Shown here: positions 2,523-62,290 of the stretch, piece by piece
How positions within the stretch are numbered: position 1 is the first letter of the stretch
How the letters are laid out: each line of letters starts with the position of its first letter
Source: Clostridia bacterium
GTDB taxonomy: Bacteria; Bacillota; Clostridia; Christensenellales; Borkfalkiaceae
DNA: 64,000 nucleotides
Assembly (NCBI GenBank): GCA_017504165.1
Contig: JAFVRR010000009.1
Coordinates: 24,251 to 88,250, forward strand
Direction: 5' to 3'
Notes under the pieces: model-generated
Database searches by the model: none
What the model saw: only the letters and a program-made list of their open reading frames with translations
Told to the model about the DNA's origin: nothing
Position numbers and translations under genes: made by a program

Positions 2523-3899
2523 ATGATACACCAATATAAATTTGACAAACTTAATATCGTTTTAGACGTGGCTTCAGGCTCTATTCACTTGGTAGACGAT
2601 ATCGCGTACGACGTTATCGCCCTTTTTGAAGATGCTAAAAAAGAAGAAGTCGTTAATAAAATTTACGAAAAATATAAAAGCGAAAGCGTTTCTTTAAAGG
2701 AAGTTCAAAACTGTTATAATCAAGTTTTAGAACTTAAAAATAACGGAACGCTTTTTAGTGAAGATAATTTTGCGCCTATTGCCCAAACTTTAAAAAATAA
2801 AAGTAAAGGCATTGTTAAAGCGCTATGTCTACACGTTGCGCACACTTGCAATTTAAACTGCTCTTACTGTTTTGCAAGCCAAGGTAAATATCAAGGCGAA
2901 CGCGCCGTTATGAGTTTAGAAGTCGGCAAACGCGCCCTTGACTTCTTAATTGAAAATTCGGGTACTAGAAGAAATCTTGAAGTAGACTTTTTCGGTGGCG
3001 AACCGCTTATGAATTTTCAAATGATTAAAAACCTTGTGGCGTACGCTAGAAAAATTGAGAAAAAGCACAATAAAAACTTCAGATTTACCCTTACAACCAA
3101 CGGCGTTTTAATCGATGACGACGTTATTGATTTTGCCAATAAAGAAATGAGCAACGTAGTACTTAGCCTTGACGGTAGAAAGGAAGTACACGATAAATTT
3201 AGGGTTGACTACGCAGGTAAAGGAAGTTACGATAAAATCGTTCCTAAATTCCAAGAACTTGTTAAAAGGCGCAATAACCAAAATTATTATATGCGCGGAA
3301 CTTTTACGCATAATAACCCGGACTTTTTAGAAGATATTAAAGAAATGCTAAATCTTGGTTTTACCGAACTTAGTATGGAGCCCGTTGTGTGCGCGCCAAA
3401 CGATCCTTCCGCCCTTACTAAAGAAGATTTAGAAATAGCATTAAAACAATACGAAGACCTTGCGCATTTACTTATTGAAAGAAAAAAAGAAGGCAAGCCT
3501 TTTACATTCTATCATTATATGATAGATTTAAACGACGGCCCTTGTATTTATAAAAGGGTTTCCGGTTGCGGGTCTGGTACTGAATATATGGCGGTTACGC
3601 CTTGGGGCGACTTATACCCTTGTCACCAATTCGTCGGCGAAGAAGAATTTAAACTTGGCGATATTTATAACGGCGTAACTAACACCGCTAAACAAGAAGA
3701 ATTTTCTAAGGTAAACGTCTACGCTCACGAAGAGTGTAGAGATTGTTGGGCAAGGCTTTACTGTTCGGGCGGGTGCGCGGCAAACGCCTACCACGCAACT
3801 AAGAGTATAACGGGTATTTATAAAGACGGTTGTACTTTATTTAAAAAGAGAATGGAATGCGCAATTGCGGTGCAAATTGCGGATATGATAGAAGAATAA
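2523..3899 (+). CDS. scfB: SCIFF maturase, radical SAM/SPASM enzyme
   Basis: 458 residues. An N-terminal peptide-recognition region (1-95) precedes the radical SAM motif CNLNCSYCF with cluster ligands Cys109, Cys113 and Cys116, and GGEP lies about 45 residues later. The C-terminal SPASM region is Cys-rich (CGSG, CHQF, CRDCWARLYCSGGCA), which binds auxiliary Fe-S clusters. The family makes thioether bonds in the SCIFF peptide, encoded immediately upstream. No clear Shine-Dalgarno precedes the ATG, which lies 25 nt after the intergenic terminator, so expression may depend on read-through. The next gene starts 1 nt after the stop. Confidence 0.95.
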   Translation: MIHQYKFDKLNIVLDVASGSIHLVDDIAYDVIALFEDAKKEEVVNKIYEKYKSESVSLKEVQNCYNQVLELKNNGTLFSEDNFAPIAQTLKNKSKGIVKALCLHVAHTCNLNCSYCFASQGKYQGERAVMSLEVGKRALDFLIENSGTRRNLEVDFFGGEPLMNFQMIKNLVAYARKIEKKHNKNFRFTLTTNGVLIDDDVIDFANKEMSNVVLSLDGRKEVHDKFRVDYAGKGSYDKIVPKFQELVKRRNNQNYYMRGTFTHNNPDFLEDIKEMLNLGFTELSMEPVVCAPNDPSALTKEDLEIALKQYEDLAHLLIERKKEGKPFTFYHYMIDLNDGPCIYKRVSGCGSGTEYMAVTPWGDLYPCHQFVGEEEFKLGDIYNGVTNTAKQEEFSKVNVYAHEECRDCWARLYCSGGCAANAYHATKSITGIYKDGCTLFKKRMECAIAVQIADMIEE

Positions 3900-28867: not shown

Positions 28868-28985
28868 AAAAAGGCACACCTATCCTTATAAGATGGTGTG
28901 CCCAGACGGTCGGCTTACATATCCTTAGTTCCATCGTGGTACTCCACTTGTTCCGTCAGTCGCAAAGGACATTTTTAAGTTAGTT
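28868..28985 (-). ncRNA. ZTP (pfl) riboswitch with terminator
   Basis: On the minus strand: GACTGACGG, then GTGGAGTACCAC, then GCCGACCGTCTGGGCA. This is the ZTP/pfl consensus order, ending in the near-invariant GCCG..CNGGGCA. Its last GGGC bases also form the 5' side of the terminator stem GGCACACC / GGTGTGCC (28873-28902), followed by a T-run, so ligand binding and termination are mutually exclusive. ZTP/ZMP accumulates when 10-formyl-THF is short, which matches control of the purE...fhs operon. Confidence 0.93.
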
Positions 28986-37357: not shown

Positions 37358-37630
37358 GCCGTGATAGACGGGGAGTTAGCGGTGCCCTGTAACTTGCAAT
37401 CCGCTATAGCAAGGTTGAACACCCTTCGAGGTAAGGTTTATGGAAGGCAGTCGGTGACAAGTGGCGTTGATGGCAAGGTCTTATGCAACGCTGAACTGTG
37501 AACCGTGTCAGGATAGGAATATAGCAGCACTAAGCGGACCTTGGCGTGTGCCATAAGGTAGCTTTGGCGGAGCAAACTATCACCATAACGCTTCGGTAAT
37601 CATTATCGGAAAGGGCTCACGGTTTATCCT
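37358..37630 (+). ncRNA. ffs: Signal recognition particle RNA, large Bacillus-type
   Basis: About 270 nt. The 5' Alu domain reads GGGGAGTTAGCGGTGCCCTG, then AATCCGCTATAGC; the central/S domain has GTGTCAGG..GGAA..AGCAGC-like bases (37508-37545) for Ffh binding; the 3' end CTATCACC / CACGG pairs with the 5' GCCGTGATAG. With Ffh and FtsY it targets ribosomes to the membrane. Ends ahead of a terminator. Confidence 0.92.
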
Positions 37631-51746: not shown

Positions 51747-51759
51747 AAATCACGGCTTT

Positions 51760-51965
51760 TAGTGCGTCAGTAATAAGGATTATTACTGACGCACTAGTTA
51801 TATTTGCCTATCGGCAAGTTATATTGCTTTCGCAGTTATATTTTGCTACGCAAAGTTATATTTACCCATTGGGTAAGTTATGGCAAATATAATATAACTT
51901 TGACTGTAAGTCAAAATCTAACTTTTAGACTTGCTCTAAAAATATAACTGTTTGCTATGCAAACA
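51760..51965 (+). repeat. Hairpin array 1: GTTATAT / ATATAAC words separating mini-palindromes
   Basis: A perfect 16-bp hairpin (51760-51796) comes first. Then GTTATAT at 51797, 51818, 51835 and 51855 (partial 51877) alternates with palindromes TTGCC/GGCAA, TGC/GCA, TTTGC/GCAAA, TTACCC/GGGTAA. The orientation then flips: ATATAAC at 51892 and 51942 (ATCTAAC at 51916) alternates with TTTGACT/AGTCAAA, TTTTAGA/TCTAAAA, TGTTTGC/GCAAACA. The array ends 7 nt before the promoter of the four-helix-bundle gene at 52008. Confidence 0.9.
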
Positions 51966-51972
51966 ATATCAC

Positions 51973-52001
51973 TTTACTTAAAACTTGTAACATGGTATAA
52001 T
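51973..52001 (+). promoter_or_regulatory. Promoter of the four-helix-bundle gene
   Basis: TTTACT (51973-51978), 17-nt spacer, TATAAT (51996-52001), then 6 nt to the ATG: the mRNA should be leaderless. Confidence 0.75.
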
Positions 52002-52007
52002 AAATTT

Positions 52008-52361
52008 ATGAGTGAAAGTGTTTTAAGAGAAAAAGCAAAAGACTTTGCTAAAAATATTGTTTTTATTACAAAAGAAATTAAGTCTAACAAAAAAGAAAGT
52101 GTATTAACTAATCAACTTTTACGTTCTGGAACAAGTATTGGTGCAAATATCCACGAAGCACAATATGCACAAGGAACGGCTGATTTTATTTCTAAACTTG
52201 AAATAGCGTTAAAAGAGTGCTTTGAAAGCGAATATTGGTTAGAATTGCTTTTTGAAACAGGATATTTAGAAGAAACTCAATACAAAAAACTTAATAACGA
52301 TTGTGGTGTTATAAGAAAAATGTTAATTTCTTCGTGCAAAACACTTAAAGAGAAAAAATAA
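52008..52361 (+). CDS. Four-helix-bundle protein (23S-IVP / Avd-like)
   Basis: 117 residues. LTNQLLRSGTSIGANIHEAQ and FISKLEIALKECFESEYWLE are the signatures of the four-helix-bundle family found in 23S rRNA intervening sequences and related to Avd of diversity-generating retroelements. The start at 52008 (MSESVLREKAKDF) is preferred to 51957, because the earlier ATG lies inside the last array hairpin and upstream of the -10 box. A nucleic-acid-binding role is likely for the family but the function of free-standing members is unknown. It lies outside any rRNA gene and immediately after hairpin array 1. Confidence 0.85.
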   Translation: MSESVLREKAKDFAKNIVFITKEIKSNKKESVLTNQLLRSGTSIGANIHEAQYAQGTADFISKLEIALKECFESEYWLELLFETGYLEETQYKKLNNDCGVIRKMLISSCKTLKEKK

Positions 52362-52364
52362 TCG

Positions 52365-52393
52365 AAACTCGACTTTAATAAGTCGAGTTTTTT
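52365..52393 (+). terminator. Terminator of the four-helix-bundle gene
   Basis: Stem AAACTCGACTT / AAGTCGAGTTT then TTTT. Confidence 0.85.
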
Positions 52394-52410
52394 TATCCAC
52401 GCGAAACTGC

Positions 52411-52439
52411 TTGATAAAACTTCTTATTAGTGCTATAAT
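52411..52439 (+). promoter_or_regulatory. Promoter of the structured RNA at 52446
   Basis: TTGATA (52411-52416), 17-nt spacer, TATAAT (52434-52439). Confidence 0.8.
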
Positions 52440-52445
52440 AATTAT

Positions 52446-52662
52446 GCCAAACGAACTTAATATTGTCGCAAATAGGCGTAGTTTCTTTTTTGTAGGATAA
52501 TCATGCTCCTATTTTGTCATACTATTCGAACAGAATCCATTTGGTAAAAGTGCGACTCCCGTTCGATAGTATGGCTATGCTTATACTTGCGATAAAGTTC
52601 GTTTGGCGACAACTTGGAGTTTCGCATTTTTCGGTGCGTTGACTTCGGTTGGCGCACTTTTT
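52446..52662 (+). ncRNA. Structured RNA of unknown class before the Ltp lipoprotein
   Basis: Starts at the predicted +1. A 13-bp closing helix GCCAAACGAACTT / AAGTTCGTTTGGC (52446-52458 with 52595-52607) encloses a second helix CATACTAT..CGAAC / GTTCGATAGTATG (52519-52573). The 5' segment TTGTCGC can pair with TTGCGATAA inside the helix or with GCGACAA just beyond it. A terminator GTGCG / CGCAC (52634-52657) plus T-run ends it, 39 nt before the lipoprotein ATG. It is either an independent ncRNA or a riboswitch-like leader. I cannot match it to a known class. Confidence 0.6.
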
Positions 52663-52695
52663 ATTTTATACTTTATTTTTGGAGGAAAAAGAAAA

Positions 52696-53109
52696 ATGAA
52701 AAAAATTGCAACTCTTTTACTTACTGCTTTAATGTTGTTTTCTACGTCATTTACTTTGACTGGTTGTCTTGACGCAACTATATCCGATACACAACAAAAC
52801 GCATCGAATAATGTCAACGCTACAATGGGCGAACGAATGGCATTATCATCAGCTAAAAATTACTTACGTGTTAGCGCATTTTCAAGAAAGGGGTTGATTG
52901 AGCAACTTGAATTCGAAGGTTATACAACCGAAGAAGCAACTTATGCAGTAAATAATTGTGGAGCAAATTGGAAAGAACAAGCAGTAAAATCAGCAAAAAA
53001 TTATTTAAAAATTATGCCATTCTCAAAACAAGGATTAATTGAGCAGCTTGAATTCGAAGGTTATACAACCGAAGAAGCAACTTATGGTGTTGAACAAGCA
53101 TATAAGTAA
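52696..53109 (+). CDS. Ltp-family lipoprotein with two tandem repeats
   Basis: 137 residues from the ATG at 52696, preceded by GGAGG. The lipobox LTGC gives Cys24. Two repeats of the host-surface lipoprotein (Ltp) motif follow: SAKNYLRVSAFSRKGLIEQL and SAKNYLKIMPFSKQGLIEQL, each continuing EFEGYTTEEATY. Phage Ltp relatives block superinfection by interfering with DNA entry; chromosomal copies are common in Firmicutes and their role is unclear. The longer frame from 52603 would read through the terminator and is rejected. Confidence 0.85.
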   Translation: MKKIATLLLTALMLFSTSFTLTGCLDATISDTQQNASNNVNATMGERMALSSAKNYLRVSAFSRKGLIEQLEFEGYTTEEATYAVNNCGANWKEQAVKSAKNYLKIMPFSKQGLIEQLEFEGYTTEEATYGVEQAYK

Positions 53110-53117
53110 AGGTGTAG

Positions 53118-53150
53118 CACACTATACTTTCAAATGAAAGTAGTGTGTTT
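53118..53150 (+). terminator. Terminator of the Ltp gene
   Basis: Stem CACACTA..CTTTC / GAAAG..TAGTGTG followed by TTTTG. Confidence 0.7.
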
Positions 53151-53165
53151 TGCAGAGCAAAAAGA

Positions 53166-53195
53166 AAAGGATAGCAAGAATTTGCTATCCTTTTA
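53166..53195. terminator. Second terminator hairpin
   Basis: AAGGATAGCAA / TTGCTATCCTT with TTTTAT on the right and AAAAGAAA on the left. Confidence 0.65.
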
Positions 53196-53267
53196 TAGTT
53201 ACTAAAAAATACCTACGGAAAGAGCACATATCCGTGATTTATTTGTTTTATTGACCTTTTTAAATAT

Positions 53268-53395
53268 GAAATTAAAGACATAGTGACAAGTTAGGCGAGG
53301 CTCTTGGGATTTTGTGGGCGAGATAGAACTTGCCGTTCATCGAGGTCACATAATCACAAAGAAACAAAGCATAACGCCGTCAATATGGCTTTAGT
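53268..53395 (+). repeat. Dispersed palindromic element after galE
   Basis: Arms TTAAAGaCaTAgTGAC, GTTAGGC pair with GCATAAC, GTCAaTAtGGCTTTA; inside are GAGGCTCT and a variable hairpin GATTTTGTG / CACATAATC. The right arm overlaps the galE stop codon. Confidence 0.75.
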
Positions 53396-54407
53396 TAGAA
53401 TAGCCGTCAGGGTTGTTAAGTTGCCAACGTAACGCGTCTTGACACATATCGTCAAGCGTTTTAGTTGCTTTAAAGCCTAAAAGTTCGTATGCAAGAGATG
53501 GGTCGGCGTAGCATTCGGCAATATCGCCAGGTCTACGCTCTACGATTTCGTATGGGATTTGTTTGCCGTACGCTTTAGAGAATGCGTTAACCATATCAAG
53601 TACGCTATAGCCAGTACCCGTACCTAAGTTTACGATAAATAAACCGCTTTTTGTAAGTAATTTTTTAACTGCTAAAACGTGGCCGACTGCAAGGTCTACA
53701 ACGTGAATAAAGTCACGTACGCCCGTACCGTCTTTAGTAGGATAATCGCCACCGAATACCCTTAATTTATCAAGTTTGCCAATAGCAACTTTTGTGATAT
53801 ATGGGCATAAATTGTTAGGAATACCGTTAGGGTCTTCGCCAATCGTACCCGATTCGTGAGCGCCAACAGGGTTAAAATAACGAAGAATTGCAATATTAAA
53901 GTCTTTATCCGCTTTATAAAGGTCTTTTAAAATGTATTCTATAAAGAGTTTAGTACTTCCGTAAGGATTAGTAGTTGAAAGTGGGAAGTCTTCTTTAATA
54001 GGAACGGTATGTGGGTCGCCGTAAACGGTAGCAGATGAAGAGAATACTAAGTTTTTACAGTTAAACTCTTTCATTACTTCTACAAGCGCAAGTAAACCGC
54101 CTATATTGTTTTGATAATATTCGATAGGTTTTTGTACCGATTCGCCAACCGCTTTATAACCTGCAAAGTTGATAACGGCGTCAATTTTATAATCGGTAAA
54201 GATTTTTCTAAGAATATCCTTATCTAAAATATCCCCTTTAATAAATGGAATTTTCTTATTAACGATTTTTTCTACGCGTTTAACCGCTTCCATTTTACTG
54301 TTAGATAAGTTGTCGATAATAACCGTTTCATAACCCGCTTTAATAAGTTCAATAACGGTGTGGCTACCAATATAACCAGCGCCACCTGTAACTAAAATAG
54401 TGCTCAT
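53391..54407 (-). CDS. galE: UDP-glucose 4-epimerase
   Basis: 338 residues. VTGGAGYIGSHTVIELIKAG binds NAD, SSSATVYG holds catalytic Ser/Thr, and NPYGSTKLFIE gives the YxxxK pair. It interconverts UDP-glucose and UDP-galactose for sugar use and envelope glycans. AGGAG precedes the ATG. Its stop lies within a palindromic element. Confidence 0.96.
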   Translation of the reverse strand: MSTILVTGGAGYIGSHTVIELIKAGYETVIIDNLSNSKMEAVKRVEKIVNKKIPFIKGDILDKDILRKIFTDYKIDAVINFAGYKAVGESVQKPIEYYQNNIGGLLALVEVMKEFNCKNLVFSSSATVYGDPHTVPIKEDFPLSTTNPYGSTKLFIEYILKDLYKADKDFNIAILRYFNPVGAHESGTIGEDPNGIPNNLCPYITKVAIGKLDKLRVFGGDYPTKDGTGVRDFIHVVDLAVGHVLAVKKLLTKSGLFIVNLGTGTGYSVLDMVNAFSKAYGKQIPYEIVERRPGDIAECYADPSLAYELLGFKATKTLDDMCQDALRWQLNNPDGYSN

Positions 54408-54520
54408 AGTACTCTCCTTGAAAGTCGTTTTTAATTATGTAATTTTAGTATATGAATATTATTAAAAAAAGTCAAGTATTTTTAAATTTAATAATATAAT
54501 TATTATTGTTATATCCTTAT

Positions 54521-54556
54521 AAAAAACATCCGCAAAGATTAGTTTGCGGGGTTTTT
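54521..54556. terminator. Terminator of the lactonase operon (bidirectional)
   Basis: Stem CCGCAAA / TTTGCGG with TTTTTT tails in both directions. Confidence 0.7.
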
Positions 54557-54570
54557 ATTATAATACAAGA

Positions 54571-54702
54571 AGTTAGCGCTTTATTTACAAGAAGCGATAA
54601 CTTTGCCGTATTTCAATTTCGAAGTATAAAAACATAAGTTTTTATGGCAAAACACTTGTTTTGCAAAGATTTTGCGAATGCAAAAGATTTAACTTCGTAT
54701 AA
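54571..54702. repeat. Cluster of small hairpins in the lactonase 3' UTR
   Basis: Three consecutive palindromes with 4-nt loops: ATAAAAAC/GTTTTTAT (54626-54645), GCAAAAC/GTTTTGC (54647-54664), TTTTGC/GCAAAA (54670-54685), inside CGAAGT / ACTTCG. It looks like the two large arrays, but no separating word and no adjacent four-helix-bundle gene are seen. Confidence 0.5.
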
Positions 54703-54703
54703 A

Positions 54704-55642
54704 TTATACTACCACACATAAAACTTTAGGAATTTTTATATCACAAATTTTACAATCTATTAAGTTGTTTTTAATATTAAATACTGTTACGTTTCCGCTA
54801 TTTTCGTTGCAAATAAATATTTTATCACCTATAATAGCAAAATCGCGCGGACTATCCCCACCACAATCTATTTTTTGAATTAACGTTAACTTTTCGCCAT
54901 CTACTTTATAAACGCAAAGTGCGTTTTCTACCCGTAAAGACACGACTAAATACTTTCCATCTTCAAAAAGTCTTATTGCAGCGCCGTTAGCACCTTCCTT
55001 TTCACAGTCAATTTTTATAGTATTTAAAAGTTTAGCCTTGCCGTTAAAGTATTTAAACACACTAATAGACGGAACAAGTTCGTTTACCGCATAAATATAA
55101 TTACTATAATTAGAAAAAACTAAATGGCGTATACCGTATCCGCTATTGACCTTTTCTTCTGAAATTAAAATTAAGTCTTTATCGTAAAAAGCAAGAATAT
55201 CCGTACCTAAATCGCAAACTGCTAAATATCCGTCTAAAGTAGTATTTATATAGTGGGTATGCGCTTCTGTTTGCCTTGTAGGATGAAGACTACTACCCTG
55301 CCTTTTGGCGATAATTTCGCCGTTTTTAACGATATTACCACTTAAATAATTGACAGTGTAAACGTCTTTATTATCTACGCATAAATGACAAGCGACCACC
55401 CCTTTAGTCGTTATTATATCGCTTGCGGTTTGTAAATTTTCGTCAATGAAAAAATATCCACTATGCTCGCTATTTTCAAAAGGCTTACGAAGTAAAACGC
55501 ATAGCCCCCTTTCGCATCTAACCGCATACATAGGTCTATCGCAAGGATAGTATTTTTCTTTTTCAAGTTTATTATCTACTAAATTATAGGCGTAAATTCC
55601 ACCGCCGTTTTCAACTAGTTCACAAGATAAAAAGTATATCAT
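54704..55642 (-). CDS. Lactonase-family β-propeller protein (YbhE-like)
   Basis: 312 residues, slightly short for the family. HTHYINTTLDGYLAVCDLGT, RHLVFSNYSNYIYAVNEL and GGDSPRDFAI are the typical motifs of the 6-phosphogluconolactonase-type seven-blade propeller, including the active-site His/Arg. It would hydrolyse a sugar-acid lactone; here the neighbouring dehydratase and SDR suggest an aldonolactone (inference). Last gene of the GH10 operon; 10 nt after the SDR. Confidence 0.75.
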   Translation of the reverse strand: MIYFLSCELVENGGGIYAYNLVDNKLEKEKYYPCDRPMYAVRCERGLCVLLRKPFENSEHSGYFFIDENLQTASDIITTKGVVACHLCVDNKDVYTVNYLSGNIVKNGEIIAKRQGSSLHPTRQTEAHTHYINTTLDGYLAVCDLGTDILAFYDKDLILISEEKVNSGYGIRHLVFSNYSNYIYAVNELVPSISVFKYFNGKAKLLNTIKIDCEKEGANGAAIRLFEDGKYLVVSLRVENALCVYKVDGEKLTLIQKIDCGGDSPRDFAIIGDKIFICNENSGNVTVFNIKNNLIDCKICDIKIPKVLCVVV

Positions 55643-55652
55643 ATTATTAATT

Positions 55653-56366
55653 TTACAACCTCATACCGCCGTCAATAATAATATCTGCGCCAGTAATATA
55701 TGCGCCATCTTCACTACAAAGCATCATAACTGCGCCTACGCAGTCGCTAGGATTGCCAAAGCGCCCCATAGGAATACAGTCTTCAACCGATTTTCTAATA
55801 TTTTCGTCGTTATACGCTCCTTCGTTTCTAGGCGTTAAAATAGCACCCGGAGAAATATTGTTTACCGTGACGCCGTAAGGCGCAAGGTCCTTTGCAATTA
55901 CTTCCACAAACTTATATACAGCGCATTTTGTTGCGGAATACATAGAGAGTTCTAAGTGTTGGCGGTGTTGATTAACGCTACCTAATGTGATTATTCTGCC
56001 AAAACCCTTTTCTTTCATATTAGGCGCGTAGGCTTGAATTAACTTTAAAGTGCTTTTAACGTTTACGTTAAATTGCTTATCGAAAGTATCGTTCGATATT
56101 TTGTCCCAAGTTTCTTTAAACTGAACGCTTGCATTTAAAATTAAGCAATCTACCGCCCCCGTCTTTTCAATTAAACTATTAACTTCTAGCATATTACTAA
56201 GGTCGCAAACAACGGCTTGATGCGCGCCTATTTCTTCCTTAATGCGATTTGCCTTTTCAATATCTTTTGAACAATGCACTATCACTTCATAGCCACGTTT
56301 AACAAAATTTAAAGCAACTTCTTTGCCTATACCTTGGGTAGAACCCGTCACTAAAACTTTTTTCAT
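55653..56366 (-). CDS. SDR-family oxidoreductase
   Basis: 237 residues. TGSTQGIGKEVAL is the NAD(P)-binding TGxxxGIG, YSATKCAVYKF the catalytic YxxxK, and NISPGAILTPRN the family loop. It reduces or oxidises a sugar or sugar-acid alcohol; substrate not readable. Its ATG overlaps the GH10 stop by 4 nt (ATGA), so translation is coupled. Confidence 0.88.
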   Translation of the reverse strand: MKKVLVTGSTQGIGKEVALNFVKRGYEVIVHCSKDIEKANRIKEEIGAHQAVVCDLSNMLEVNSLIEKTGAVDCLILNASVQFKETWDKISNDTFDKQFNVNVKSTLKLIQAYAPNMKEKGFGRIITLGSVNQHRQHLELSMYSATKCAVYKFVEVIAKDLAPYGVTVNNISPGAILTPRNEGAYNDENIRKSVEDCIPMGRFGNPSDCVGAVMMLCSEDGAYITGADIIIDGGMRL

Positions 56367-57679
56367 AATACTATTTCCTTGCCGTTTTCATCTAAATTAA
56401 CAGTATGCGATTTACCGTCGACTATTATTTCATACTCGCCGTAAAAACCTTTAAATTTAAGTTCGTTATTATTTACGGTTTTTATAAAATTAGTCTTCCA
56501 CTCTTTATTGATAAGCCTATCTAAAACTTTATAAGCAGGTTTTTCGGTCATATCAAAGCGAAGAAGTCCACCACCGCAACGGTTTTCACCTAAATTTGTG
56601 CCAAGTGGAGCGTACGCAGCGTAACCGTCTACTAAATTCCACCAAACTATGCTCTTCATATTGCGCGTAGCAAACCACGTTTTATAAAGCTCTTCTACCA
56701 AATACGCTTGAATTTCTTCGTTTTCTTCATTTTGACCGCTACCAGGCACGGTGATTTCAGAAACGTGCATTGGAAGACCGTAATTATCAAAAATCTCTAA
56801 AATTTCTAAAAGGTATTCTACGTTTAAGTAAGTATCGATAACCATATCGCCTTCCATCTCTTCAGAAGTGTTAAAAATATGGTATTGAAGCCCTATTTCA
56901 TCAATAGGTAAACCTTTATTTATAAAATCTTTAAGTTGCATATTAAACGCCATATACTTACCTTCCGTGCGATAGTCACGCCAAATAGCAGTATTCGTTT
57001 CGTTTAATATTTTTGTATTGTTAGAAAAATATTTACCACCGAGCATTAAGCCGTATTCATCGTAGTCTTCAAACAAAAATTTTAAGCCCCTACGATAATT
57101 ACTTGCGCTTTCGTTAACTATATCAAAAGAAGGAATTTTACTAGAATATTCATCCGCAATTTCTTTAAATCTACGCTCTACAATCTTTTTTCTTTCTTCT
57201 TTAGAATATTTTTCAAGCCAATCGGGAACAAATTTATTCCAAAGCAAACAATGCCCTTTAGGTTCGATACCATATTCTTTACAAAACTCTAAAACAAGGT
57301 CGGGTTGAGGACGGCGGTAGACGTTTTCCGTATCTTTTCTAAAGCGAAGTTTACCTTCTTCGGGCTCTAAATCACTCCAATAAAAGGGTACTACCGCTTG
57401 ATTAAATAAATTGACGAACTTTTCTTTATATATAACTTCTTTTTCTTCCTTTTCAAAAGAATTTAACATAAAAGCAGTCGTTCCGAATAAAAATTTGTGT
57501 TTCGTTTGTTTAACGGTAACTTCTTTTTTATCTTCGTTTAAAAATTTAATAGTAAACTCACCCTTGCGGTATTTTTCAATACCTTCTTCGTTGCGTTTAT
57601 CTAAAAGTTCTTTATTATCTAAAAAACTTTTTAATATCTTTTCTCTATCAATTTTTTTAATTTCTTCCATTTTTTTCAT
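56363..57679 (-). CDS. GH10 endo-xylanase, cytoplasmic
   Basis: 438 residues with no signal peptide. Catalytic acid/base Glu190 in SFDIVNES and nucleophile Glu308 in HVSEIT; substrate residues LLWNKFVPDWL. Residues 45-70 form a short extra N-terminal β domain. Family members cleave β-1,4-xylan; without a signal peptide this one should trim imported xylo-oligosaccharides. It is the middle gene of an operon with a dehydratase, SDR and lactonase, an unusual mix for a plain xylanase. Confidence 0.85.
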   Translation of the reverse strand: MKKMEEIKKIDREKILKSFLDNKELLDKRNEEGIEKYRKGEFTIKFLNEDKKEVTVKQTKHKFLFGTTAFMLNSFEKEEKEVIYKEKFVNLFNQAVVPFYWSDLEPEEGKLRFRKDTENVYRRPQPDLVLEFCKEYGIEPKGHCLLWNKFVPDWLEKYSKEERKKIVERRFKEIADEYSSKIPSFDIVNESASNYRRGLKFLFEDYDEYGLMLGGKYFSNNTKILNETNTAIWRDYRTEGKYMAFNMQLKDFINKGLPIDEIGLQYHIFNTSEEMEGDMVIDTYLNVEYLLEILEIFDNYGLPMHVSEITVPGSGQNEENEEIQAYLVEELYKTWFATRNMKSIVWWNLVDGYAAYAPLGTNLGENRCGGGLLRFDMTEKPAYKVLDRLINKEWKTNFIKTVNNNELKFKGFYGEYEIIVDGKSHTVNLDENGKEIVL

Positions 57680-57682
57680 CCT

Positions 57683-58999
57683 TTAAGACCATTCTCTATC
57701 GTTTGCCCATTCTTTATCCCACTCTGACGTATCTTTCCAAGGCTCGTCACAGTCGGCTTTGCGGAATTTTTCAATAAGTTCTTCGTTTAAACTTTCAATA
57801 CCCAAACCTGGCGTGTTAGGAACGTTCATAAACCCGTTTTCAAGTTTAATTATAGGATTTACAAGTTCATACCATTCAGGGTGGTCAACGGAGTGGAATT
57901 CTACGGCAAGTACGTTTTTAAGCGCAGCGGCAGCGTGCACCGCAGCCATAAAACCAATAGGGCTTTCCGCCATGTGAATAGCAAGCGCAACGCCGTATTT
58001 TTCACATAATGCGCCAACCTTTTTCATTTCCATAAACCCACCAATCGTAAGCATATCAGGATGAATAACGTTTACACCTGCTTGCATTACCTTTTCAAAG
58101 TTTTCTGCAAGGTAAATATCTTCGCCCGTGCAAAGCGGTACGCTAGAATTTTTAGCAAACTTTTCTAAATGGTTAGTTTGATGCCATGGCGCTAAGTCTT
58201 CCATCCAAGCAATGTTGTATTTTTCAAGCCTTTTAGCAAAGCGAATGGCGTCTTCTATGGCAACATGACCAAAATGGTCGATTGCAAGCGGTACTTCGTA
58301 GCCTATTTCTTCACGAATTTCCTTTACGTAGTTTTCAAGGTAATCTAAACCCTTTTCTGTAATATGAATACCGGTCGCATAGTGCGGAATAGTAAAAATT
58401 TCATAATTTTTTCCAAACATTAAAGACTTATCAATACTTCCCGATTGGTGACAAATGGCCTTCATTGAATATTTTTGCATATCTTCAAGCATACCAACGG
58501 GTGCATTTAACGTGCCTGGTTCGTCGTATAATAACTCTATACCCAAATCCATTTTTAAATAAGTAAACCCGTCTTCCATACGTTTTTTAAGGGCTTTACC
58601 CATATCTTTTCCCGTGTGTTTGCCATCTACGTCGGTATCACAATAAATACGCACCTTGTCGCGATACTTACCGCCTAAAAGTTGATAAACGGGAACTTTA
58701 TAAAATTTGCCTATAATATCAAATAAAGCAATTTCTATACCCGAAACACCACCGCCTTGGCGCGAATGTCCGCCAAATTGTTTAATTCTATTAAATAATT
58801 TTTCTACGTTTAACGGGTTTTCGCCAACAAGCCTACTTTTAAGCATTTTAGCATACGTTGCACTAGACGCATCCCTCACTTCGCCGTAACCTACGATTTC
58901 AGGGTCGTTTGTAAATATTTTTAAAAGTATCATATGTTTAGGTAAACCGTTAATGTCGGCAACCCTAATATCCGTTATCTTTAATTCGTTTGCATTCAT
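57683..58999 (-). CDS. Enolase-superfamily sugar-acid dehydratase (mandelate racemase type)
   Basis: 438 residues. Capping domain then barrel. Metal ligands: Asp in IDHFGH, Glu in WMEDLAPW, Glu in CTGEDIY; the acid/base region TYLKMDLG and the later HPDMLTIGG, AIHMAESP follow. This is the pattern of ManD/GalD-like acid-sugar dehydratases, but the exact substrate (gluconate, mannonate, galactonate, xylonate) is not readable. It is the first gene of the operon, divergent from an AraC regulator. Confidence 0.85.
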   Translation of the reverse strand: MNANELKITDIRVADINGLPKHMILLKIFTNDPEIVGYGEVRDASSATYAKMLKSRLVGENPLNVEKLFNRIKQFGGHSRQGGGVSGIEIALFDIIGKFYKVPVYQLLGGKYRDKVRIYCDTDVDGKHTGKDMGKALKKRMEDGFTYLKMDLGIELLYDEPGTLNAPVGMLEDMQKYSMKAICHQSGSIDKSLMFGKNYEIFTIPHYATGIHITEKGLDYLENYVKEIREEIGYEVPLAIDHFGHVAIEDAIRFAKRLEKYNIAWMEDLAPWHQTNHLEKFAKNSSVPLCTGEDIYLAENFEKVMQAGVNVIHPDMLTIGGFMEMKKVGALCEKYGVALAIHMAESPIGFMAAVHAAAALKNVLAVEFHSVDHPEWYELVNPIIKLENGFMNVPNTPGLGIESLNEELIEKFRKADCDEPWKDTSEWDKEWANDREWS

Positions 59000-59110
59000 A
59001 ATTGTTTCTCCTAATTTTAATTATAATTAAATTATACTATTTTATCGGAAAACACTCTATAATAATATTTTTACGTTTATAAACTATATTTCGATTTTTG
59101 TTTTTTTAAC

Positions 59111-59139
59111 TTGACAATAAATATATTTTAAACTAATCT
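59111..59139 (+). promoter_or_regulatory. Promoter of the third AraC gene
   Basis: TTGACA (59111-59116), 17-nt spacer, TAATCT (59134-59139); the start would fall on the ATG at 59146, so a leaderless mRNA is expected. Confidence 0.7.
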
Positions 59140-59145
59140 ATAAGT

Positions 59146-60000
59146 ATGGAAATTATACACGAAATTAAGTTTAATAATGTAGATGCAATTAGATTATTTT
59201 CTTCTAACGCATCGGAAAGAAAAAACAACGTTAGAATTCACTATCATTCACTTATAGAAATTTCTTTAATTTTAAAAGGTAAAGGAAAATATAAGGTAAA
59301 TAACCATATTTACGACATAAATGCAGGTGACGTTTTCTTCTTTAGACCAAACGAAGCGCATTGTGTTACAGATATTGATACGGGCGGTATGGAAATATTA
59401 AACCTACATATTGCGCCATATTATCTTTATACTAATTTACAAAACGCGCTAAACGCTAACTTTATTAAGATTTTAACGTTAAACTTTAAACTTAAAAGCA
59501 ATAAAATTAACGATACTTTACCAAGTTATCAAATGGACACAATTAAACCGTTAATCCTTTTAATAAAGCAAGAATTTATAGATAAAAAAAGCGATTATAT
59601 TACGCTTGTCAATAACTATATTTCTGCGCTACTCATAACTTTTTCTAGGGCGTATAACGAGCAGGGCTTTTCTAAAAAGGAACTGCAAAGTTATCAAAAA
59701 CTTTTAAGCGCAATTGAGTATATAGATAACCATTATAAAGAAAACATAACCCTTGACGAACTTGCTTTAAACGTTGGCTATAGCCGTTGCTATTTTTCAT
59801 CGATATTTAAAAAGTGTATGGGTATGTCAATATGGGATTATATCTCTATAAAACGTATAGAAAGGTCTCTTTTTTTAATAAAAACTACCGATAATAATAT
59901 ACTAGATATAGCGTTAGAATGCGGATTTAACAACACCGTTAACTTTAACAAAATTTTTAAAAAATATACCAACCTACTTCCTAGCGCATTTAGAAAATAA
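59146..60000 (+). CDS. AraC-family regulator of the dehydratase/GH10 operon
   Basis: 284 residues. Cupin part (HYHSLIEISLILKGKGKY, FFRPNEAHCV) and C-terminal HTH pair (LNVGYSRCYFSSIFKKCMG, DIALECGFNNTVNFNKIFKK). It diverges from the dehydratase gene and is its likely regulator. Confidence 0.87.
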   Translation: MEIIHEIKFNNVDAIRLFSSNASERKNNVRIHYHSLIEISLILKGKGKYKVNNHIYDINAGDVFFFRPNEAHCVTDIDTGGMEILNLHIAPYYLYTNLQNALNANFIKILTLNFKLKSNKINDTLPSYQMDTIKPLILLIKQEFIDKKSDYITLVNNYISALLITFSRAYNEQGFSKKELQSYQKLLSAIEYIDNHYKENITLDELALNVGYSRCYFSSIFKKCMGMSIWDYISIKRIERSLFLIKTTDNNILDIALECGFNNTVNFNKIFKKYTNLLPSAFRK

Positions 60001-60008
60001 ATAAAACT

Positions 60009-60036
60009 AAGCGGAACTATTTTAGTTCCGCTTATT
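60009..60036 (+). terminator. Terminator of the AraC gene
   Basis: AAGCGGAACTA / TAGTTCCGCTT then ATTTATT. Confidence 0.75.
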
Positions 60037-60114
60037 TATTACTTAATTTTATTATATATCACTTCTTACTATATAAATACTAAAAAAATACTTTGTTTAT
60101 TAGATATATTACTA

Positions 60115-60786
60115 TTACCAAATAAACGGAATTAAACGATATTTTACTTTTTTAGTGTATTCTTCGTAGCCATTGAGTTCTTTTAATAAAAACTTTTCTT
60201 CGCTTTTAATTCTAAATGCAATAATAAACGGATAGAGTAAAAAGATAATTAGCGAAAATACCGAGCCGAGCACTAACGGCATTGATAAGAATAAAATTAC
60301 TGTCGAAAAATACATTGGATGGCGAACTATTCCGTATAAACCCGTGTCTATTACCTTTTGATTATCTACAACCTTAATAGTACGGCTTAAATAGGTGTTT
60401 TGCTTTAAAACTATAGCGTATAGAATATAGGCAATTAAAAATAAAACGCAACCAATAATCACAATAGGTAATGGCAAAGAATACCACTTAAACCTAAAAT
60501 TAAGCCCCGCAACGATAAAACCACATATGAACATAAGCCCACTTAACTTTACAACCATAGATTGCTCTTTTAACTTTTCTTTAGCGTTAAGCCTTGAAGA
60601 TAATAAACTAGGGTTTTTAACCATCATAACAATCCCTGCTAAAAACATAGGAATAAATAGTATTCCCATTAAAAGCCAACCGTAATAGTAATTTAGCGAG
60701 CCTGCGGGAAGAAATATTAAAGCCCCAACAAGCACAGCGCCTAGTAAAAATTTTAAAATTGCCGATATAAATAATTTTAAAGTCAT
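60115..60786 (-). CDS. Isoprenylcysteine carboxyl methyltransferase-family membrane protein
   Basis: 223 residues with about five membrane segments. The C-terminal RHPMYFSTVILFLSMPLVLGS and SEEKFLLKELNGYEEYTKKVKYRLIPFIW are the ICMT/PEMT signature (His-Pro and the terminal SAM region). In bacteria these likely methylate lipids or unknown small targets. 9 nt after the zinc-motif gene upstream. Confidence 0.8.
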   Translation of the reverse strand: MTLKLFISAILKFLLGAVLVGALIFLPAGSLNYYYGWLLMGILFIPMFLAGIVMMVKNPSLLSSRLNAKEKLKEQSMVVKLSGLMFICGFIVAGLNFRFKWYSLPLPIVIIGCVLFLIAYILYAIVLKQNTYLSRTIKVVDNQKVIDTGLYGIVRHPMYFSTVILFLSMPLVLGSVFSLIIFLLYPFIIAFRIKSEEKFLLKELNGYEEYTKKVKYRLIPFIW

Positions 60787-60795
60787 AATCCACCT

Positions 60796-61050
60796 TTATT
60801 TAAACCACGTTTTATGCATATTTTTTAAAAACTCTTTTGTAATTTCAACTTTACTGTCGGGCAAAACGGAGTCAATTTGACAAAACGGACATAGCGCGGT
60901 TTCCTCTTTACTATCTTTTAACCAATTTACAATTAAATTTTTATCAAAAATTTTACCACAATAAAAGCATCCGCACTTTTTGCTTTTTAAAATTTCTTCT
61001 TTATTAAGTTTAGAGTATTCGTGCGCTAAACTAATATCGGTTATCATCAT
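60796..61050 (-). CDS. Small zinc-motif cytoplasmic protein
   Basis: 84 residues. Two CxxC pairs, CGCFYCGKIF and CPFCQIDSV, probably bind one zinc. No domain name is recognised, though similar 80-90-residue conserved proteins are common. It is co-directional with the ICMT-like gene (9-nt gap). Confidence 0.65.
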   Translation of the reverse strand: MMITDISLAHEYSKLNKEEILKSKKCGCFYCGKIFDKNLIVNWLKDSKEETALCPFCQIDSVLPDSKVEITKEFLKNMHKTWFK

Positions 61051-61125
61051 ACCCTTCCCCGCTAAATTTTATTATTTTTATTATATCAAAAATCTTTAAT
61101 AATTTCAATACAGCAAAATAAAAAA

Positions 61126-61146
61126 GCAAGGCGAACTCGCCTTGCA
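61126..61146 (-). terminator. Terminator of the zinc-ribbon membrane gene
   Basis: GCAAGGCG / CGCCTTGC with minus-strand TTTTTATTTT. Confidence 0.8.
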
Positions 61147-61155
61147 TAATCTATT

Positions 61156-61575
61156 TTATTTATAACTACCGCAATCTTTGCAGTATAAAGCCTTGCTATC
61201 GTTTTCAGTTTTGCATTTTTTACATATCCAATTGCTGTTAGAAGTTTTTATTATGCTTTCTTTTTTGATTTGTTCAGAGGTTTTGCAACTATTAGACATG
61301 TTTCCTACACTCTTTAATTTTTCCGTACTATTTGAGGAAATTTCTTTACGTATTGCATAAACGCTATAATTAATTTCTTGAAGATTATCTATAATTTCAC
61401 CAAATCCATATAATAGTATACAAAAAACAACACCAAAAACTAAACATATAAAAAAATATGTAAAATTAAAACCACTTCTATACCCGGCATTTTCTACACC
61501 TAATACAATAGAGCCTATAACAACCACTATGCCTATTATACCCGCTAAAGCTTTAATAAATTTACCTACTTCCAT
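61156..61575 (-). CDS. Two-TM protein with C-terminal zinc ribbon
   Basis: 139 residues: two membrane segments (8-28 and 36-58), a Ser/Lys-rich linker, then CKKCKTENDSKALYCKDCG, a zinc ribbon. Function unknown. Its promoter spacer contains the upstream operator palindrome, so the divergent XRE protein at 61667 probably represses it (inference). Confidence 0.65.
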   Translation of the reverse strand: MEVGKFIKALAGIIGIVVVIGSIVLGVENAGYRSGFNFTYFFICLVFGVVFCILLYGFGEIIDNLQEINYSVYAIRKEISSNSTEKLKSVGNMSNSCKTSEQIKKESIIKTSNSNWICKKCKTENDSKALYCKDCGSYK

Positions 61576-61604
61576 AAAAAATCTCCTAAAAATTTAATAA
61601 AACT

Positions 61605-61660
61605 ATTTTAATATAGAATATTCTATATGTCAAGTAAAATTATAGAAATTTCTATATACT
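61605..61660. promoter_or_regulatory. Divergent promoters with paired operator palindromes
   Basis: Perfect palindromes TATAGAATATTCTATA (61612-61627) and TATAGAAATTTCTATA (61641-61656), centres 29 bp apart, about three helical turns. The first fills the 17-bp spacer between minus-strand TTGACA (61628-61633) and TAAAAT (61605-61610); the second overlaps the plus-strand -10 TATACT (61655-61660) of the XRE gene. Confidence 0.75.
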
Positions 61661-61666
61661 AAAGAT

Positions 61667-61879
61667 ATGGAAAACAATTTTAGTGAAATATTAAAAGAAT
61701 TTTTAACCGAAAACAATTTAACTCAAGTGGAATTTGCTAAGAAAATAGGCGTTAAGCAGAGTCAAGTTAGCGAATGGCTTAAAGGCAAAGCAAAACCCGG
61801 CTACGACATTTTAAAAAGTATGGCAATTGCCTTTAACGTTTCAGCAGATTATTTTTTAGGAATTAAAAATGAATATTAA
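61667..61879 (+). CDS. Small XRE-family repressor
   Basis: 70 residues. Single HTH: LTQVEFAKKIGVKQSQVSEW, then LKGKAKPGYDILKSMAIAFN, without a sensor domain. The ATG lies where transcription should start (leaderless). It sits beside two matching palindromes and probably represses itself and the divergent gene. Confidence 0.85.
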   Translation: MENNFSEILKEFLTENNLTQVEFAKKIGVKQSQVSEWLKGKAKPGYDILKSMAIAFNVSADYFLGIKNEY

Positions 61880-61881
61880 TA

Positions 61882-61909
61882 AAAAAGCACTTCTTTTGAA
61901 GTGCTTTTT
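61882..61909. terminator. Bidirectional terminator
   Basis: AAAAAGCACTTC / GAAGTGCTTTTT. Confidence 0.8.
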
Positions 61910-61954
61910 AATTGTCTTGGGTGTGAAAAATACGCACCAAAACTCTAAATGTTT

Positions 61955-62089
61955 TTATTCTCCCAAAAAGATTTTGCGGATTTGAAAAACAGTATTTGAA
62001 CAATCCTTAATTTTAGATAACGATTGACAGAGCAATTCAATTTCCGTTGCCAACTGTTCTGCGTATTTCATTAGTATGTTTTCTTTCAT
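61955..62089 (-). pseudogene. Truncated four-helix-bundle protein
   Basis: Minus-strand ORF of 44 codons: MKENILMKYAEQLATEIELL, then CQSLSKIKDCSNTVFQIRK and a stop after IFLGE. The first 39 residues match the start of four-helix-bundle/IVP-like proteins, and the conserved RSSxSIGANIHEA part, expected next, is absent. Read by hand; weak Shine-Dalgarno AAGG. It follows hairpin array 2, just as the intact homologue follows array 1. Confidence 0.6.
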
Positions 62090-62110
62090 GAATTTTACCT
62101 TATAAAAAAT

Positions 62111-62290
62111 CACAACGCGAGTTGTGTATGTAATCCGCGATAGCGGTATGGAATCAAAACTTGTATGTAATCAAGCCGAAGCGAATAATTACATACACAG
62201 CAAGCTGTGATTACATACGCCTACGGCGATTACATACCAAACCTTCGGCTTGAATAAACAACCTAAGTTGAGAATCAACTTAGGTTGTTT
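62111..62290 (-). repeat. Hairpin array 2: TATGTAATC / GATTACATA words separating mini-palindromes
   Basis: In the minus-strand sense it starts with a 16-bp perfect hairpin (62256-62290). The word TATGTAAT(C) then separates CGCC/GGCG and CACAGC/GCTGTG. After a centre (62173-62187) the inverted word separates CCGC/GCGG and CACAAC/GTTGTG. On the plus strand, TATGTAATC lies at 62127 and 62164 (TATGGAATC at 62147), and ATTACATA at 62188, 62210, 62229. Ends ~20 nt before the truncated four-helix gene. Confidence 0.88.

Follow-up and report, generated by a model that had tools for sequence, protein, structure and literature searches.

The window analysed here, a stretch of 64,000 nucleotides (nt) from the Clostridia bacterium assembly GCA_017504165.1 (contig JAFVRR010000009.1, family Borkfalkiaceae), contains two arrays of small hairpins, A1 and A2, each directly upstream of a gene for a four-helix-bundle protein (IVP) or of its truncated relative. 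The subject of this report is the nature of these arrays, which we regard as probable ends of small mobile elements. In both arrays, we found the layout described in an earlier sequence-only reading, namely a leader hairpin, short words (W) separated by mini-palindromes, a centre where the word flips to its reverse complement (W'), and the gene (Table 1). A leader of 16 bp had been given for both arrays, which is correct for A2, but the perfect stem of A1 is 17 bp. The two arrays were also said to be unrelated in primary sequence, and indeed they have no word in common. A part missing from that description is the pair X and X', present in A1 and, by eye, in several other arrays; because X is complementary to X', the first hairpin is able to pair either locally or with X'. 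The gene at 52008-52361, previously called IVP-like, encodes a full member of TIGR02436 (113 bits, cut-off 24) with a relative of solved structure (PDB 2rld_A, E 2.6e-32). A Lipoprotein_Ltp gene lies between it and the right end of A1, which was chosen by eye as the last among five motif candidates. With AAATCACGG (51747-51755) on one side and CCGTGATTT (53232-53240) on the other, the A1 unit would extend from approximately 51756 to 53231, with the IVP and lipoprotein genes inside.

Table 1. Features of arrays A1 and A2 and of their putative elements (window positions).
Feature	Position	Strand	Remarks
Left half of predicted host terminator hairpin (AAATCACGG)	51747..51755	+	complementary to 53232-53240
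A1 leader hairpin, element's left end	51760..51796	+	17-bp perfect stem, 51760-51776/51780-51796
X, first word and 5' arm of first hairpin (GTTATATTTGCC)	51797..51808	+	complementary to X' 51882-51892
W arm	51797..51861	+	GTTATAT at 51797, 51818, 51835, 51855; mini-hairpins between
X' (GGCAAATATAA), centre with word flip	51882..51892	+	inverted repeat I21
W' arm	51892..51972	+	ATATAAC 51892, ATCTAAC 51916, ATATAAC 51942, ATATCAC 51966; mini-hairpins between
IVP gene, four-helix-bundle protein, 117 aa	52008..52361	+	TIGR02436 113 bits, PF05635 102 bits
Terminator-like hairpin and T run 3' of IVP gene	52365..52396	+	
Passenger gene, Lipoprotein_Ltp repeat protein	52696..53109	+	PF07553 111 bits, tested as open reading frame 52603-53109
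A1 right end (AATACCTA...)	53208..53231	+	placed by eye; similar to the right ends found in L006 and in solo copies
Right half of predicted host terminator hairpin (CCGTGATTT)	53232..53240	+	pairs with 51747-51755
Truncated IVP gene of A2	61955..62089	-	ATG at 62089, stop at 61955
Array A2	62108..62255	-	in gene sense, TATGTAATC words, flip, GATTACATA words
A2 leader hairpin	62256..62290	-	16-bp stem, 62275-62290/62256-62271

In A1-type elements, a single predicted terminator hairpin is divided between the flanks, its 5' half on the left and its 3' half on the right, an arrangement that points to insertion at the hairpin tip. These halves were compared in a group of 26 elements and in part of the second of two sets of IVP loci. 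The first set was drawn from 101 genomes, including that of the window, of which 24 hold 49 IVP matches. The second set comprised the best 80 of 407 relatives of the window protein, and the two overlap (L214 is L006, L222 is L029, and L227 is L009). Of the 26 elements, 14 allowed their right end to be located by eye, and in these the own right half ranked first in eight cases and first or second in 11. Among 26 second-set loci looked at, nine had a clear leader and right end, including L214 (again L006); complementary halves of at least 9 nt were found in eight of the nine, and the own half was also the best in eight. For L223, the better of two right-end candidates was used (10 nt; the other gives 8), while the other eight had a single right end listed. 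In both groups, none of 100,000 permutations paired the halves as well as the own pairs did, figures that are too favourable since the halves were visible to us when the right ends were chosen. In eight of nine placeable loci, the A1-type copy appears to occupy the tip of a predicted terminator hairpin.

Gene-less copies were sought with the A1 locus in nine congeneric genomes, and array matches apart from IVP genes were found among them. One gene-less copy of 370 nt is 99% identical between G002 and the window's own genome (G000), with unrelated flanks. In G004 and G005, the sequences that flank the G002 copy lie next to each other with an intact terminator between them, and the copy is absent from this site. 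Similarly, the flank matches of the IVP-carrying L006 element (genome G026) are 94 nt apart in G101 versus 1301 nt in L006, and the homologous G101 site has an intact terminator and no element. G041 is also without the L006 element and has another gene between the flanks. Candidate empty sites for L103, in G006 and in a G000 paralogue, were not counted, as the left flank alone matches. The ends of L159 are 96% identical; its IVP gene breaks off after the initial codons and gives way to other DNA. At several contig ends of G009 and G106, we noted left-end fragments of approximately 92-99% identity, suggesting a high-copy repeat that breaks assemblies. The left flank of A1 itself had only weak matches within the genus (nine congeners searched). 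Filled and empty homologous sites were found for relatives, and these data support the view that the arrays are the ends of mobile elements. The sequence-only reading had offered a mobile element as one possibility and proposed a search for empty sites. Such sites exist for the gene-less G002 copy and the IVP-carrying L006 element; with these, the gene-less copies and the near-identical copies at different flanks, the mobile-element reading is supported, and the earlier interpretation as a whole is partly so.

Other elements are found behind tRNA genes. Of 50 loci, 23 follow a tRNA at a distance of at most 430 nt and two others follow a transfer-messenger RNA (tmRNA), with the array beginning after the terminator; for L003 and L016, the partner in the long matches is the tRNA or tmRNA end itself. 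At the tRNA-Leu(CAG) site, a long tRNA match was obtained in eight of nine genomes. G002, G005, and G008 have the terminator and no array (181 nt are visible in G008 before the contig ends), and the site is filled differently elsewhere, by a GATGAAATC element in G000, an AATGATG element in G001, a short-word array in G007, and half of a TATGTAATC array in G004. The match in G003 (80%) may be another tRNA-Leu and has a gene-less array next to it. In L022, sequence resembling the 3' end of tRNA-Asn stands on both sides of the element, like the attachment sites of a larger island.

The arrays were compared with dinucleotide shuffles, over which hairpin coverage was raised in both A1 (z 4.7) and A2 (z 4.1). 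The fold of A1 had a z of -9.0 as RNA and of -10.4 as DNA of the other strand. The word count alone is a weak signal, since at least two copies of both W and W' were reached in 18 of 100 A1 shuffles and 2 of 100 A2 shuffles. The longest spaced inverted repeat was at least 10 nt in 31 of 37 arrays versus 4.5% of shuffles, a test in which any pair counts and not X:X' alone (X:X' is not the longest pair in A1 or A2), and from which 13 of the 50 loci had been dropped beforehand (two short, eleven with another layout). Hairpin loops of the form C(TN(N)C)G or C(GN(N)A)G made up 88 of 238 in array regions versus 8 of 192 window hairpins, and a closing C-G pair was present in 158 and 30 of these, respectively. 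Judged from these counts, the array hairpin loops look selected. Loops of the C(GNA)G and C(GNNA)G types are extra-stable in DNA. There was no clean left/right split of loop types by position. In an alignment of 12 rows, mismatches comprised 11 G.T, 8 A.C, and 46 others, and compensatory double changes were seen in 4 of 5 pairs of hairpin h4 and 5 of 7 of h6, as well as in 1 of 6 (h1), 1 of 5 (h2), 1 of 3 (h3), and 0 of 6 (h5). With the three A1-type rows out of register at X and h1, we make no claim about X:X' from this alignment.

The source genome has four IVP genes and the truncated one, every one with an array by eye and with hairpin z values of 2.1 to 5.9. In the first set, where 47 of the 49 matches and A2 were analysed (two upstreams were too short), 29 of 48 upstream regions had hairpin coverage with z>3. 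In the second set, from which three short loci were dropped, z>3 was reached in 58 of 77 upstreams and z>2 in 70 of 77, versus 2 of 68 and 8 of 68, respectively, in control regions 630-900 nt further upstream. The sequence-only reading had named equal hairpin density in random intergenic DNA as damaging to its proposal, and the nearby control regions do not have such a density. It had also named free-standing relatives that lack arrays, and here the outcome is mixed. The two sets of relatives have the hairpin excess, but in a phylum-wide survey (299 genomes, 53 with the family, 29 loci fetched) most loci have, by eye, plain inverted arms of heptamer words without hairpins, and six are low even for arms (L193, L195, L197, L207, L209, L211); the hairpin layout is therefore not universal. 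Exceptions within the first set are short-word arrays, as judged by eye (L005, L007, L008, L018, L021, L028, L033, L034), and several short-word loci have the reverse complement 3' of the gene. Word class matched protein kinship in 33 of 33 nearest neighbours, with classes set by eye from the same loci, an agreement that shows co-inheritance and not recognition. Relatives occur in the named strains Ruminococcus bromii 5AMG and Sporobacter termitidis DSM 10068. Related IVPs are on at least 25 plasmid and at least two phage records among the matches listed, making plasmids and phages possible vehicles of IVP elements. We also observed array sequence, partial or additional, 3' of the IVP gene in L002 (1355-1500) and L025, and array segments repeated upstream of the gene in L015 and L035.

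A near-identical A1 leader is present in L006 and in L212 to L215, in other genomes, and the content of such elements varies. The element L215 measures approximately 672 bp, and IVP is its sole open reading frame (ORF) of at least 60 aa from an ATG; within that scope this complete form encodes no transposase, the enzyme expected of an insertion sequence. Passengers differ among the nine second-set elements: a 198-aa ORF recurs in L216, L217, L219, and L223 (the L217 copy matches S-adenosylmethionine-dependent methyltransferase), L213 carries a GIY-YIG protein similar to group I intron endonucleases (2933-3814), and L212 and L214 have ORFs without family. Among 14 aligned IVPs the invariant residues are Q36, S43, N47, E50, A67, and E73, and no recognisable catalytic site was found among them. 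Three of the genus genomes (G003, G004, G005) gave no IVP match.

The words of A2, in gene sense, are TATGTAATC at 62228-62236 and 62209-62217, with the reverse complement at 62164-62172 and 62127-62135 and additional variants. L027 and L048, which follow a tmRNA and a tRNA, have the same leader type. The ORF starting at 62089 had no IVP family match in profile searches; its reading as a truncated IVP is based on the 87% DNA identity of array and gene start to L027, where the IVP is intact, and agrees with what had been proposed for this gene. A2 is part of a related element carrying a truncated gene. Its boundaries are provisional; in another genome a different element (L020) follows the same flank. 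Beside A2, the segment 62357-63916 encodes a SpoVG-like protein and a recombinase, and this flank is 93% identical to that of L020. Near A1, the intergenic stretch leading up to the lipoprotein gene (about 52398-52695) has counterparts in congeners (L001 1837-2139, up to 88% identity) and also directly 3' of a gene-less array in L075; it may be a structured RNA and has no Rfam match. Elsewhere in the window are a T-box leader (1915-2144), a ZMP/ZTP riboswitch (28893-28973), and a large signal recognition particle RNA (37359-37622).

We favour, with moderate confidence, the explanation that the arrays are the ends of small mobile elements and that the A1-type copies lie in predicted terminator tips, where IVP likely put them. 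The evidence is of sequence, consisting of shared ends, gene-less copies, differing passengers, split terminators, and homologous empty sites of relatives. The words would be binding sites for IVP. In the single-stranded element, the arms would fold back, with X pairing with X', the hairpins extruded, and perhaps W pairing with W'. The IVP complex would recognise a host hairpin at its unpaired tip, and the folded element would be joined in at that point, the moving form being preferably single-stranded DNA cut and joined by host enzymes. As the host stem remains paired on either side, expression would suffer little. Elements behind tRNA genes start just 3' of the terminator instead. The 23S rRNA intervening sequences (IVSs) would be elements of this kind as well, with an rRNA as their site.

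Several observations weigh against this explanation, in addition to the permutation figures qualified above. No right end could be placed for 12 of the 26 elements, the halves fail for L105 and L114 (ranks 12th and 13th) and less so for L112 (5th), and they also fail for L222, whose IVP gene has a stop. An unanchored search for split halves scored 10 in 366 of 600 controls versus 20 of 25 elements. This search, noisy at low scores (at score 14, 23 of 600 controls versus 9 of 25 elements), was superseded by the right-end-anchored tests. The tRNA-side elements lack a recognisable split terminator within 1.6 kb. Inspection by eye showed no target duplication at the G002/G004/G005 and G026/G101 sites, where the stems differ in sequence between species and the exact joined bases are therefore unreadable, and the L102 site gave right-flank matches only and no empty site. 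We know of no catalytic site in IVP and of no transposase. Solo copies are carried by G004 and G005, and a partial match and a gene-less array by G003; copies in these genomes without an IVP match mean that copies persist without IVP or that something else moves them, which speaks against a constant need for IVP. G.T mismatches (16) exceed A.C mismatches (7), a weak lean to RNA. Finally, the data come nearly all from metagenome assemblies.

Other explanations account for part of these data. The probability that the arrays are chance palindromes or a composition effect of AT-rich intergenic DNA is negligible: at least two copies of W and W' do occur in 18 of 199 window tiles, but the hairpin excess over controls and the A1 fold scores count as its refutation. 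It is very improbable, too, that an array is a mere expression leader of the IVP gene (an attenuator or autoregulatory RNA), immobile as such. An array directly upstream of a gene, in which X can pair with a local hairpin or with X', would suit such a leader, but the gene-less copies, the near-identical copies at unrelated sites, and the empty sites, which largely refute it, would not, and in other loci the arms flank the gene. More weight, although we still consider it unlikely, is given to miniature elements moved in trans by an unrelated transposase or integrase, with IVP a passenger such as an RNA-binding protein with a protective or regulatory role for the transcript. Movement in trans is consistent with solo copies where the genome has no IVP match, with other content in the same place (e.g., L159), and with invariant IVP residues that include no recognisable catalytic site. 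Against it stand the minimal 672-bp element with no further ORF of at least 60 aa, the variation of passengers across nine elements, and 18 of 29 phylum loci in which no downstream flank pairs better with the upstream flank than the one belonging to the same IVP gene.

Movement through an RNA copy, whose hairpins would be recognised and which a reverse transcriptase acting in trans would insert at terminators, in the manner of group IIC introns, is in our view improbable. The G.T excess and the strong RNA fold of A1 fit this route; in addition, group IIC introns are reported to insert just behind rho-independent terminators (PMC8919778), and RNase III is reported to cut out 23S IVS RNA (PMC4990558). 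However, no reverse transcriptase was found among the ORFs tested and no Rfam match in L006 and L103, and A1-type elements are inserted in the hairpin tip and not 3' of the stem. Loop types (for DNA) and G.T excess (for RNA) point in opposite directions, and neither settles the moving form.

The sequence-only reading knew of no named element with this plan, and our literature search, in which few subscription journals were covered, likewise found no description of free-standing IVP elements with arrays or of hairpin-tip insertion. Miniature inverted-repeat transposable elements (MITEs), BOX/RUP/SPRITE, and REP/REPIN sequences are, according to one account (PMC3049150), also small, folded, dispersed, intergenic, and partly modular. 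The present elements differ from them in having no known transposase ends, a complete form with an IVP gene, and a hairpin-tip target. Group IIC introns similarly target rho-independent terminators, as stated in PMC8919778, but A1-type elements are in the hairpin tip, with no ribozyme (Rfam, L006 and L103) or reverse transcriptase (ORFs tested). The same absence of a reverse transcriptase among the element ORFs tested separates them from diversity-generating retroelements. We take Avd of these retroelements to be a related four-helix protein; the Avd model scored 17.3 bits (E 0.0043) against the IVP at 52008, far under its 80-bit cut-off.

The closest likeness is to the 23S rRNA IVSs, which share the protein family, the inverted arms, and a location in a host RNA gene. 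IVSs are described as selfish and were once proposed to be mobile (PMC4990558), and the same source calls the role and mobility of the IVS and its S23 protein unclear since the first descriptions. The window elements differ in being at or behind terminators, with hairpin-word arrays, passenger genes, and gene-less copies; no rRNA match at gathering scores was found in the window. As for the stem typical of IVSs, the host terminator halves pair and the arms hold inverted repeats, and the element's own ends do not form one long stem. Pieces of 23S genes were found in one of nine genomes of the genus (G005), with no large insertion by coordinates. In the 29 phylum loci, the downstream flank, the best partner in the 18 already mentioned, exceeded the 99th percentile of swapped pairs in 11. 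In these 11 pooled loci both arms have a 7-nt period (identity 0.48/0.47 at lag 7 and 0.46/0.40 at lag 14, versus 0.20-0.32 at other lags from 3 to 13). The 11 include L196, L204, and L205, three loci within 23S rRNA genes that have inverted word arms on either side of the IVP gene, so rRNA IVSs and many free-standing loci share the gene and the word-arm plan. We tentatively suggest, as a possibility, a new class of transposons without recognised transposase, in which IVP and the array of short words and unique mini-hairpins would insert themselves as a folded single strand into hairpin tips (terminators, tRNA-terminator junctions, rRNA helices), with the 23S IVSs as its long-known branch. If true, a hairpin tip, and not a sequence, as target would be an unusual choice of harmless insertion site. 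With free-standing gene-carrying copies and empty sites in relatives, the question of IVS mobility is now directly testable.

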